Shown here: positions 11,837-14,221 of the stretch, one piece after another
Layout of the letters: the number at the start of each line of letters is the position of its first letter
Numbering within the stretch: position 1 is the first letter of the stretch
From: Kitasatospora sp. NBC_01287
GTDB taxonomy: Bacteria; Actinomycetota; Actinomycetes; Streptomycetales; Streptomycetaceae
NCBI RefSeq assembly: GCF_026340565.1
Contig: NZ_JAPEPB010000001.1
Span: forward strand, 6,050,001 to 6,114,000
Direction of reading: 5' to 3'
Length of the DNA stretch: 64,000 nucleotides
Notes under the pieces: model-generated
Seen by the model: the letters and a program-made list of their open reading frames with translations, nothing else
Told to the model about the DNA's origin: nothing
The model's database searches: none
Made by a program: the position numbers and the translations under genes

Positions 11837-12454
11837 TCAGGCCTGCCGGGGGTCGAGGCGGCCGTGGCGGTCCGGCCCGTCCAGCTGCTTCGCCGCGTGC
11901 CGCAGCCGCAGCGCCGCCGCCACCTCGACCAGGCCGACCACCAGCAGCCAGCAGCCGGCGACCACGGTGAGCACCGTGACCGACTTGATCGGCCAGCTGA
12001 TCAGCACGATCCCGGCCGCCGCGTTGACCAGTCCGAGGAAGATCAGCCAGCCGCGCGCCGGGGTGCCGGGATCGGAGGCGGCGGCGACCACCTGGGTGAT
12101 GCCGCGGAAGAGCCAGCCGATGCCGATCCACAGGCCCAGCAGCACCAGCGACTCCAGCGTGCCGCGGAAGCAGAAGAGCCCGAGCAGGATCGACAGCGCC
12201 CCGCTGATGAACGCCATCACCCGCAGCGCGGTGCTGACATGCGTACCGAACGCCGCGACCAGCTGGACCAGCCCGCTGAGCAGTAGGAACAGCCCGAAGA
12301 GCACCCCGATGACGGTCAGCGTGGCATGCGGCCAGACGAGGACCAGCACCCCGAGCAGCGCGGCCGCCAGCCCCGCGAGCAGCAGGGCCTGCCAGGCGGA
12401 GCGGGCCAGCTGCCGGAACGGGCCTGGCAGGGATTCAGTGGAAGGAAAGGTCAT
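11837..12454 (-). CDS. HdeD/DUF308 family membrane protein
   Basis: 205-residue protein with six evenly spaced hydrophobic helices (for example AWQALLLAGLAAALLGVLVLVWP, LTVIGVLFGLFLLLSGLVQL and TVLTVVAGCWLLVVGLVEV), matching the HdeD/DUF308 family of small acid-resistance-associated membrane proteins. The biochemical role is unknown. ATG 12454 is preceded by GGAGG, though with only one base between, so the ribosome binding site spacing is unusually short. Upstream is a 15-bp tandem repeat tract at about 12484-12533. Confidence 0.8.
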   Translation of the reverse strand: MTFPSTESLPGPFRQLARSAWQALLLAGLAAALLGVLVLVWPHATLTVIGVLFGLFLLLSGLVQLVAAFGTHVSTALRVMAFISGALSILLGLFCFRGTLESLVLLGLWIGIGWLFRGITQVVAAASDPGTPARGWLIFLGLVNAAAGIVLISWPIKSVTVLTVVAGCWLLVVGLVEVAAALRLRHAAKQLDGPDRHGRLDPRQA

Positions 12455-12483
12455 GCCTCCAGCCTCGGAGCCGCAGGGGCGGC

Positions 12484-12533
12484 CCGCGACCCGGGCGGCG
12501 CGTGACCCGGGCGGTGCGTGACCCGGGCGGCGC
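12484..12533. repeat. 15-16 bp tandem repeat GCGTGACCCGGGCGG
   Basis: About three near-identical copies of GCGTGACCCGGGCGG in tandem between the divergent HdeD-like and RHH genes. It sits where regulatory DNA for the HdeD-like gene would be expected. No function is evident. Confidence 0.7.
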
Positions 12534-12606
12534 GCGGTGTCGGACGGCGCGCGGGGGCGCGCGGATCGCGGCCGCACGCGCCCTTGTGGTGCTAGCAGGT
12601 GAGCGC

Positions 12607-12619
12607 TAGCTTCGATTGC
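12607..12619 (+). promoter_or_regulatory. Leaderless promoter of RHH/Fic-like pair
   Basis: TAGCTT at 12607-12612 lies 7 bases before ATG 12620, with no Shine-Dalgarno sequence, so the transcript is probably leaderless. An imperfect palindrome GCTAGC...GCTAGC (12592-12597 and 12606-12611) overlaps it and could be an operator for the ribbon-helix-helix protein itself; that is inference. Confidence 0.55.
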
Positions 12620-12865
12620 ATGGGTAAGAAGCAGCTCAACGTGCGGGTGGACGCCACCACCGCCGAGATGGCCCGCGAGCGGGCGGAGCAGCAGGGGATC
12701 AGCATGAACCAGTACATCGAGCGGCTCGTCCAGCAGGACATGGGCGAGGCCGGGCTGCGCTTCGTCGACGCGGCGGCGCAGTTCATGAAGGAGTACGAGA
12801 GCGAGTTCCTCGCCGAGTTCGGTGAGTCCGAGTCCACCGCCGAGCGCCAGGGCGTACGCCGTTGA
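12620..12865 (+). CDS. Ribbon-helix-helix antitoxin-like protein
   Basis: 81-residue protein. The N-terminal KKQLNVRVDATTAEMARERAEQQGISMNQYIERLV reads as a ribbon-helix-helix DNA-binding fold (beta strand QLNVRVD, then two helices) like HicB/Arc-type antitoxins. The C-terminal part (AAAQFMKEYESEFLAEFGES) is acidic and helical, suitable for binding a partner. Its stop overlaps the TTG start of the next gene (TTGA). RHH plus Fic-like pairs of this form are widely annotated as toxin-antitoxin modules in Streptomyces. ATG 12620 was chosen over upstream starts because of the leaderless promoter spacing. Confidence 0.8.
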   Translation: MGKKQLNVRVDATTAEMARERAEQQGISMNQYIERLVQQDMGEAGLRFVDAAAQFMKEYESEFLAEFGESESTAERQGVRR

Positions 12866-13287
12866 AGCTTGAGGTCGACCTCTCCTGGCTGCTCATGATC
12901 GCCGAGCAGTACACCCCCGGTGACCCGCAGGTGACCGACTACGGCTCGCTGCTCGCGGCCGTCACGCGCCACCAAGCCCAGATCTTCGACATCGCCGTCT
13001 ACCCCGAGCCGCAGGACCGGGCCGCCGCCCTGATGCACCAGCTGATCCGGGTGCCGGCCCTGGAGCGCACCAACGAGCTCTTCGCCACCGCCGCCGCCTA
13101 CGCCTATCTGGTGGCCAGCGGCTGCCACGTCGCCACCACCGCCCGCGAGGTCCGCAGCGTGGCCCGCGCGATCCGCGAGGGCCGGCTCGGGGTGGACGGT
13201 GTGGCCGAGCGGCTCAACGGCTGGGTGGTGGACGAGGCCGAGGGCGAAGGGGTCGCGGGCGAGGACGGGGAGGACGACTCGGACTAG
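12862..13287 (+). CDS. Fic/Doc-like toxin component with degenerate active site
   Basis: 141-residue protein translated from a TTG that overlaps the antitoxin stop (TTGA). The central helix region resembles Doc toxins: the segment LERTNELFATAAAYAYLVASG aligns by eye with the Fic motif and following helix (HxFxDxNKRTA...FL...NG). In that alignment the catalytic histidine is replaced by P65, and lysine and arginine of the motif by E72 and L73, while N71 is kept. Fic enzymes transfer AMP or phosphate to target proteins using that histidine, so classical activity seems unlikely. The last ~20 residues are a strongly acidic tail. It could be a regulatory partner instead of a toxin. Confidence 0.7.
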   Translation: MKLEVDLSWLLMIAEQYTPGDPQVTDYGSLLAAVTRHQAQIFDIAVYPEPQDRAAALMHQLIRVPALERTNELFATAAAYAYLVASGCHVATTAREVRSVARAIREGRLGVDGVAERLNGWVVDEAEGEGVAGEDGEDDSD

Positions 13288-13345
13288 GACGGACCAGCGG
13301 ACCAGTCGGCCGGCAGACCGGCCGGGCGCGGCGCGGGACGCGGTT

Positions 13346-13357
13346 TAGGGTGGGTCG
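13346..13357 (+). promoter_or_regulatory. Leaderless promoter of RlmA-like gene
   Basis: TAGGGT at 13346-13351 lies 6 bases before the GTG start at 13358; no ribosome binding site is present. Confidence 0.65.
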
Positions 13358-14221
13358 GTGCTCCGGGACATCGAGCGGTACCTGACCTGCCCCCACTGCG
13401 CGCTCGGCCTCGCGCTCGACGCGACCGGGCGCGCCCTGCGCTGCCCCGAGGGCCACACCTTCGACCTGGCCAAGCAGGGCTACGTCAGCCTGCTGCCCGG
13501 CGACGCGCACACCGGTACCGGTGACACGCCCGAGATGGTGGCGGCCAGGGCCGACTTCCTCACCGCCGGGCACTACCGGCCGATCGCCGCGGCGCTGGCC
13601 GAGGCAGCCGGTTCGGTGTGGCCGGCGGGCACCGCGGACGGGCTGGTCGTGGACCTCGGCGCCGGTACCGGCCACTACCTCGCGCACGTCCTGGACGCGC
13701 TGCCCGGTGCGGTGGGCGCGGCCCTGGACATCTCCAAGTTCGCGCTGCGCCGCGCCGCCAAGGCGCACCCCAGGGCCGGTGCGGTGGTCTGCGACGCCTG
13801 GCGGCCGCTGCCGCTGGCCGACGGCTGCGCCGATCTGCTGCTCAACGTCTTCGCACCGCGCGGCGGCGCCGAGATCCACCGGGTGCTGCGTCCCGGCGGC
13901 AGCCTGCTGCTGGTCTCGCCCACCGCCCGCCACCTGCGCGAGCTGGTCGGTGTGCTCGGCCTGCTCTCGGTCGACGAGGAGAAGGACCGGCGGATCGACG
14001 AGAAGCTCAGCCCCTGGCTCACCCCCGTCGCGGCGCGCGAGGTGGAGTTCGAGCTGCGGCTCTCGCACCGGGACGCGGCGGCGGTGGTGGGGATGGGACC
14101 GAGCGCCTGGCACACCGACCCGGCGCGGATCGCCGCCGCGCTCGGCTCGCTGTCCGAGCCGGTGGCGGTCACCGGCTCGGTGCGGGTCGCGGTGTACCGG
14201 CGGCTGGCGGACGGCGGCTGA
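13358..14221 (+). CDS. RlmA-type 23S rRNA (guanine-N1) methyltransferase homologue
   Basis: 287-residue SAM-dependent methyltransferase. The N-terminal zinc ribbon has the C-x2-C...C-x3-H pattern (YLTCPHC and LRCPEGHTFDLAKQGYVSLL), a hallmark of the RlmA/TlrB family that methylates N1 of G745 or G748 in 23S rRNA. The SAM site is LVVDLGAGTGHYL, followed by VLRPGGSLLLVSP. In the family some members give macrolide (tylosin, mycinamicin) resistance; whether this one is housekeeping or protective cannot be read from the sequence. It starts at GTG 13358, leaderless, and ends shortly before a two-copy 21-bp repeat. Confidence 0.85.
   Translation: MLRDIERYLTCPHCALGLALDATGRALRCPEGHTFDLAKQGYVSLLPGDAHTGTGDTPEMVAARADFLTAGHYRPIAAALAEAAGSVWPAGTADGLVVDLGAGTGHYLAHVLDALPGAVGAALDISKFALRRAAKAHPRAGAVVCDAWRPLPLADGCADLLLNVFAPRGGAEIHRVLRPGGSLLLVSPTARHLRELVGVLGLLSVDEEKDRRIDEKLSPWLTPVAAREVEFELRLSHRDAAAVVGMGPSAWHTDPARIAAALGSLSEPVAVTGSVRVAVYRRLADGG

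Follow-up and report, generated by a model that had tools for sequence, protein, structure and literature searches.

An active Doc protein, besides being a toxin, serves its partner Phd as a corepressor or stoichiometric sensor. In phage P1 (PDB 3dd7, 3k33, and 3kh2), Doc carries the motif HxFxDANKR and is paired with the antitoxin Phd; the protein described here shares the Doc fold over its whole globular part and likewise follows a small antitoxin-like gene, but the asparagine is all that remains of the motif and the partner is an RHH protein. Doc of Escherichia coli phosphorylates EF-Tu, and Doc of Enterococcus faecalis (PDB 9vzc), the best PDB sequence match of our profile, differs from our protein in being a kinase with an intact motif and a Phd-type antitoxin (PMC13034048). 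Two phd/doc-type loci have been proposed in Streptomyces coelicolor (PMC3303803).

Departures from the canonical motif are already in print. Doc clade D2, with Qx(F/Y)x(D/E)(G/V)NKR, consists of natural Docs that lack the catalytic histidine, as ours does, but the D/E, N, K, and R of the motif are retained in D2, whereas in our clade N alone persists and a different motif is conserved (PMC4454073). Fic2 of Campylobacter fetus resembles our protein as a Fic protein with a degenerated motif in a toxin-antitoxin (TA)-like network, but its histidine is kept and is needed for toxicity (PMC5651007). AvrB (PDB 1nh1) also has the Fido fold (Z 8.6) and is described as a protein without the conserved motif (PMC4454073). 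It differs in being a type III effector. We know of no RHH partner of AvrB. The XRE-DUF397 pairs of Streptomyces (e.g., Scr1/Scr2) offer a parallel of another kind; they look like TA systems and are multicopy but do not behave as toxins. By name, they belong to other protein families. Fourteen such pairs, earlier classed by prediction as TA systems, are reported with no clear toxicity and are studied as regulators (PMC10364602). Our search of the open-licence literature found no description of the degenerate Doc clade reported here.

The locus lies in a 64,000-nucleotide stretch of the Kitasatospora sp. NBC_01287 genome, G000:C1:6050001-6114000, which we call the window. A Doc-like open reading frame with a TTG start (positions 12862 to 13287, plus strand; 141 aa) is preceded by a gene for an RHH (HicB-type) DNA-binding partner (12620 to 12865, plus strand; 81 aa, ATG at 12620, stop at 12863 to 12865). 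The upstream protein matched PF05534 (Pfam HicB, RHH) over residues 3 to 36 with 26.6 bits (cut-off, 21), and the Phd family was absent among the ten Pfam matches at E ≤ 1. Stop and start overlap in the sequence TTGA (12862 to 12865, plus strand), and the same 4-nt overlap was found in 95/114 pairs of degenerate loci. Gene order and TTGA overlap thus give the window locus the antitoxin-first overlapping operon layout, and the coordinates and the PF05534 match bear out the first-pass annotation, which had placed an RHH-type gene before the Doc-like frame. The Doc-like protein ends in an acidic tail (residues 124 to 141; 13231 to 13284, plus strand) that is probably disordered (pLDDT below 50 at residues 126 to 141) and is missing in Streptomyces noursei-type homologues (L044 to L048).

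We compared the flanks of 65 Kitasatospora-type loci, which were not de-duplicated and were covered for 1.5 to 3 kb as far as contig ends permitted. We found a RumA-like gene in 35 and one resembling RlmA in 32, whereas the DUF308 neighbor seen in the window recurred in 1, which points to a genomic place common to many of these loci, with variable flanks. In the window, positions 13358 to 14221 encode an RlmA/MyrA-like 23S rRNA guanine-748 methyltransferase, a relative of macrolide self-resistance methyltransferases; its score against the MyrA model was 301.5 bits, below the cut-off of 625.

The window's Doc-like protein had no Pfam Fic match at E ≤ 1 and nothing over any Pfam cut-off; PF02661 was also unmatched at E ≤ 1 by five degenerate relatives, and NCBIfam returned zero matches for the window protein at E ≤ 1. 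The case for its kinship to Doc is therefore built on profiles, a bridging sequence, and the fold. A bridge is provided by a paralogue in the same genome, L008 (RNRVLVDGNKRTA), which the window protein finds with an E value of 3.3e-12 and 31% identity and which itself matches PF02661 (Fic) at 1.5e-13. When ten degenerate sequences were aligned with ten canonical Docs by hhalign, the probability was 99.4 over 123 columns. When PDB chains were searched with an HMM that had only degenerate sequences as input, it found Doc of E. faecalis (9vzc, E 1.3e-5) and of phage P1 (3k33, E 1.3e-4), with P1 Doc H66 aligned on P65 and N72 on N71.

Structure prediction pointed the same way. An AlphaFold2 model made from degenerate sequences only reached a pLDDT of 61.8 (the four other models, 41 to 45), and a Foldseek search with it gave zero PDB matches at E ≤ 0.001, while the five best PDB rows were all Doc (probability 1.00, E 0.012 to 0.097). 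When Docs from viral contigs were added to the alignment, the pLDDT rose to 90.1; this model was built with canonical Docs in the alignment and so does not count as independent evidence of homology. Foldseek again placed Doc closest (probability 1.00, E 2.7e-4), and phage P1 Doc was the closest solved fold (Z 17.1, rmsd 2.1 over 119 residues), with the next Fic row after Doc at Z 8.9. The Fic/Doc fold that the first-pass annotation had proposed, with structure prediction as its check, was recovered. A Doc fold for the window protein and its clade is well supported.

The former active-site loop comprises residues 63 to 74, RVPALERTNELF (13048 to 13083, plus strand); its canonical counterpart in L101, from outside the family, is RNHALVDGNKRT. 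Three methods (hhalign, the degenerate-only HMM against the PDB, and a MAFFT alignment of 134 sequences) agreed on the register, which pairs P65 (codon 13054 to 13056, plus strand) with the catalytic histidine, R69 with the aspartate, N71 (codon 13072 to 13074, plus strand) with the asparagine, E72 with the lysine, and L73 with the arginine. The by-eye placement of P65, N71, E72, and L73 in the earlier annotation, including its central claim of a proline at the catalytic histidine position of Doc, was reproduced by all three, and the helix that it described as kept after the motif is helical in the predicted model (residues 71 to 85). An intact Fic motif at another place in the protein was rejected as a candidate; inspection of the translation showed no HxFx(D/E)xN(K/R) elsewhere, and the profile alignments share one register. 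N71 is thus the sole residue of the catalytic motif HxFx(D/E)(A/G)N(G/K)R retained in the window protein, and the alignments make the loss of the Fic catalytic residues well supported.

To describe the clade, we counted residues in 116 degenerate sequences, all distinct, and in 18 canonical ones on the MAFFT alignment, excluding sequences of ≤100 aa; the two sets were drawn after the motifs had been seen, so the motif counts describe the clades. (L117 gave no match, L050 ends at a contig end, and L245 was trimmed by hand.) The histidine position held proline in 107 and arginine in 9 of the degenerate sequences, and histidine in none of the 116, compared with histidine in 17 and arginine in 1 of the canonical ones. 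The nine arginine-bearing sequences form a subtype with RPLPVRNNLY that has a member, L007, in the same genome. At the aspartate position, the degenerate sequences had R (65), K (22), V (10), H (6), F (4), S (3), N (3), A (2), or E (1, in L251), whereas D was found in 18/18 canonical sequences. The lysine position was occupied by E (57), A (34), N (9), L (8), V (4), R (3), or Q (1), and the arginine position by L (91), M (16), H (5), or R (4); the canonical sequences had K and R, respectively, in 18/18. The asparagine (N71) was conserved in 116/116 degenerate and 18/18 canonical sequences and was also the sole invariant column of a 65-sequence alignment.

In the 134-sequence alignment, D26, R36, A54, and A55 were invariant in degenerate and canonical groups alike. 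The degenerate clade is marked by W121, present in 116/116 degenerate versus 6/18 canonical sequences, and by E68, present in 105/116 degenerate sequences; L67 occurred in 115 of the 116. P65, N71, E72, and L73 recurred in 37/37 Kitasatospora-type genes with synonymous variation (P65 codons CCG 22, CCC 14, CCT 1), and we conclude that these residues are not there by chance. Single substitutions of the histidine were observed as well. The paralogue L008 (G000:C1:6562349-6562720) has a single H-to-R change with the rest of the motif intact, and its upstream RHH protein ends in LLERLA; L279 (G196) and the viral locus L143 also encode Docs with H changed to R and an otherwise intact motif, and the Doc of viral locus L141 has Q at the histidine position.

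The first-pass annotation had treated the protein as a single oddity; it belongs instead to a clade that is widespread in Streptomycetaceae. An orthologue was found in 37/37 same-genus genomes, its own included, at E 3.2e-70 or better. Among 150 sampled Streptomycetaceae genomes, 149 matched the degenerate profile at E ≤ 1e-8, with up to 11 matches per genome at that threshold. The best E value was 1e-28 or better in 144/150, which is presence by score; this value lies beyond that of the best canonical Doc read with the degenerate profile (L270, 1.6e-22). From this sample, 30 loci (L186 to L215) and 40 further places were read and the rest were assigned by score; the sequence read for L186 ends short of the end of the motif, and that for L193 is not informative.

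In a sample of the class, 26/148 genomes matched at E ≤ 1e-15, 11 within the family and 15 outside it. Ten of the 15 outside matches were read (L101, L270, and L272 to L279), of which eight had H, one had H changed to P (L272), and one had H changed to R (L279). L272 (G241:C2:25252-25611) is a Doc of another family with that single change (RNPALVDGNKR); parts of its upstream antitoxin lie in two different frames, and the module has probably decayed. Another family of the order carries the degenerate form (L086 to L088).

Plasmids carry the family too; 141 plasmid records matched at E ≤ 1e-5, all of them from Streptomycetaceae (136 Streptomyces, 3 Embleya, 1 Kitasatospora, and 1 Streptomycetaceae). 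Among the matches listed, the product name at 15/40 plasmid places was "fic family toxin-antitoxin system, toxin component." Proteins given this PGAP name (e.g., WP_223772845.1, 57% identical, on plasmid NZ_CP139046.1) are members of the same family; the name implies a Fic toxin, but the catalytic motif is absent in the proteins so named here. A phage origin was rejected, with zero matches among 50,697 phage records and a relative on one IMG/VR contig. That contig (L128; IMGVR_UViG_3300047321_000445), 97 kb in length, encodes a degenerate Doc (RCPALEYGNELF) near its end.

In a phylogenetic tree, 40 degenerate and 41 canonical rows fell on opposite sides of one branch (SH-aLRT 99), and the split persisted when the columns of residues 63 to 76 were removed; these trees are quick searches with few columns, long branches, and an uncertain root. 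Because the groups were drawn after seeing the motifs, the tree that omits the motif columns supports the split more independently. Across the 37 Kitasatospora-type loci, the Doc-like gene had a median dN/dS of 0.121 (663 pairs) and the RHH gene one of 0.097 (662 pairs). Both genes evolve under purifying selection.

The partner gene has been kept along with the Doc-like gene, but its C terminus differs from that of canonical partners. An RHH-profile partner was found at 114/117 degenerate loci (the rule used found none at L081, L090, and L093) and, by the same profile, at 12/18 canonical loci. R/K-L within 4 residues of the RHH C terminus, a pattern chosen after inspecting the sequences, was present in 12/12 canonical partners versus 0/114 degenerate partners, whereas an FxxEFG-like tail was present in 101/114 degenerate partners versus 0/12 canonical ones. 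At the six canonical loci with no RHH match, the upstream ORFs also end in R-L, as read by eye. In the window, the RHH C-terminal segment is DAAAQFMKEYESEFLAEFG (12767 to 12823, plus strand), and canonical Doc partners have a different tail ending in R/K-L. From these sequences, the altered tail suggests that the pair may still bind but that the tail is no longer selected for enzyme inhibition. One of the loci with no partner by our rule, L093 (G033:C1:493900-497200), has CTATCAGGTGATAG just upstream of the start of its degenerate Doc gene.

Upstream of the RHH gene we identified a putative promoter-operator (12584 to 12612, plus strand). Its promoter elements, read by eye, are a -35-like TTGTGG (12584 to 12589), a 17-bp spacer, and a -10-like TAGCTT (12607 to 12612), all on the plus strand; a strict sigma-70 scan and a terminator scan of 12450 to 13400 found nothing. 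The -10-like element ends 7 nt before the RHH ATG at 12620, so the transcript is possibly leaderless. Inside this promoter-like region lie two half-sites, GCTAGC at 12591 to 12596 and at 12605 to 12610 (plus strand; GCTAGC-N8-GCTAGC).

GCTAGC-N7-9-GCTAGC was found upstream in 97/113 loci of the PALE subtype (not de-duplicated) and in 0/42 loci outside it, which comprise other degenerate subtypes and canonical Docs; the autoregulation reading is therefore confined to the PALE subtype. Twelve of the 16 PALE loci with no exact site were inspected (the others are L018, L087, L088, and L185). Nine had a one-base variant, L245 had the tandem site outside the stretch first searched, L240 had none, and the stretch for L223 was empty. 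In the genome, the full operator-like pattern occurs once, at the window site, even with up to 3 mismatches allowed; a looser search for two GCTAGC copies within 30 bp adds C1:2971417 and C1:4186506. The former is a short tandem run of GCTAGCG (G000:C1:2971417-2971443). With so few other tandem sites, a large regulon controlled through them is improbable, and we rejected it on a search that counted pairs and not single half-sites.

We postulate that the window protein is a non-catalytic, Doc-fold partner of an autorepressor in a module derived from a TA pair, and we think this somewhat likelier to be right than wrong. The RHH protein, encoded by the first gene, would bind the two GCTAGC half-sites spanning its own promoter. 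The Doc-fold protein, encoded by the second, would have lost Fic-type transfer of phosphate or AMP, since it has neither the histidine nor the aspartate that binds metal, nor the lysine and arginine that bind phosphate. Without these four residues, the Fic reaction is not expected to proceed. Instead, the protein would act by binding, gripping the altered RHH tail as a corepressor or stoichiometric sensor, and the output under selection would be regulation or binding.

The remaining fold, the partner, the operator-like site, and the selection on both genes fit a binding partner in an autoregulated complex of the two proteins. The first-pass annotation had left open whether the chemistry differs or the module has been turned into a regulator; its premises, the Doc fold and the loss of residues, held, and three features favor the regulator side, namely conservation of the operator-like site, retention of the RHH partner, and the change in the RHH tail. 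There is also precedent for the contact. Hot spots of Salmonella Phd are mainly hydrophobic, leucines 67 and 70 among them, and the catalytic site is not directly bound (PMC9207808); in the E. faecalis Phd-Doc complex, the Doc motif stays exposed (PMC13034048). By analogy, antitoxin binding could outlive catalysis. A counterpoint to the regulator reading is that there is one evident site, at the module's own promoter, and no obvious output.

An alternative hypothesis, unlikely in our judgment but to be taken seriously, is that the protein is still a toxin and the RHH protein a true antitoxin. Toxicity would then come from holding a target, for example EF-Tu, without covalent modification, or from another reaction in the same pocket. 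The TA-like operon speaks for this, as do the 141 plasmid records (E ≤ 1e-5) and up to 11 matches per genome (E ≤ 1e-8); addiction modules, too, typically occur on plasmids, in several copies per genome, and as overlapping operons. The conservation of a replacement motif (E68 in 105, L67 in 115, and N71 and W121 in 116 of 116) is a further point in its favor, but H, D, and K are all gone from the window protein, the partner has no canonical R/K-L tail, and presence in 37/37 same-genus genomes is unlike a sporadic toxin. The example of C. fetus Fic2 cuts both ways, being toxic despite a degenerated motif but retaining and requiring the histidine (PMC5651007).

We regard as doubtful a second possibility, that the Fic pocket has been rebuilt around the motif (R/H)xPxLExxNxLF and the invariant D26, R36, N71, and W121, that it binds or converts another ligand, and that the aromatic-acidic tail of the RHH protein reads the outcome. 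If true, this would mean that a toxin fold became a ligand-sensing or newly catalytic subunit across almost an entire bacterial family.

A third possibility, more doubtful still, is an immunity factor. A dead Doc would in this case protect against active Docs arriving on plasmids and phages, either by titrating their antitoxins or by occupying their targets. Canonical Docs are present in the same genus (L107 to L109, L111, L112, L114, and L118), and Fic-Fic neutralization has been described in C. fetus (PMC5651007), but the canonical partners found end in R/K-L, an ending missing from the RHH protein of the window, and this difference suggests that the two kinds of pair differ in binding specificity. 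That the pair is a decaying relic of a TA module is very improbable, because although catalytic residues are lost and a probably decayed case exists (L272 of another family), decay of the clade is disfavored by the dN/dS values, which indicate purifying selection on both genes, and by conservation of the RHH partner (114/117 loci), of the operator-like site, and of the gene itself (144/150 genomes by score).

Under the reading we favor, a non-catalytic partner of an autorepressor, proteins labeled as toxins in databases may be regulators or binders. If the clade is catalytically dead, toxin counts for Streptomyces would be inflated, and the family would be a natural experiment in the conversion of a TA pair, one that would show which parts of Doc are needed for antitoxin binding and autoregulation without catalysis.
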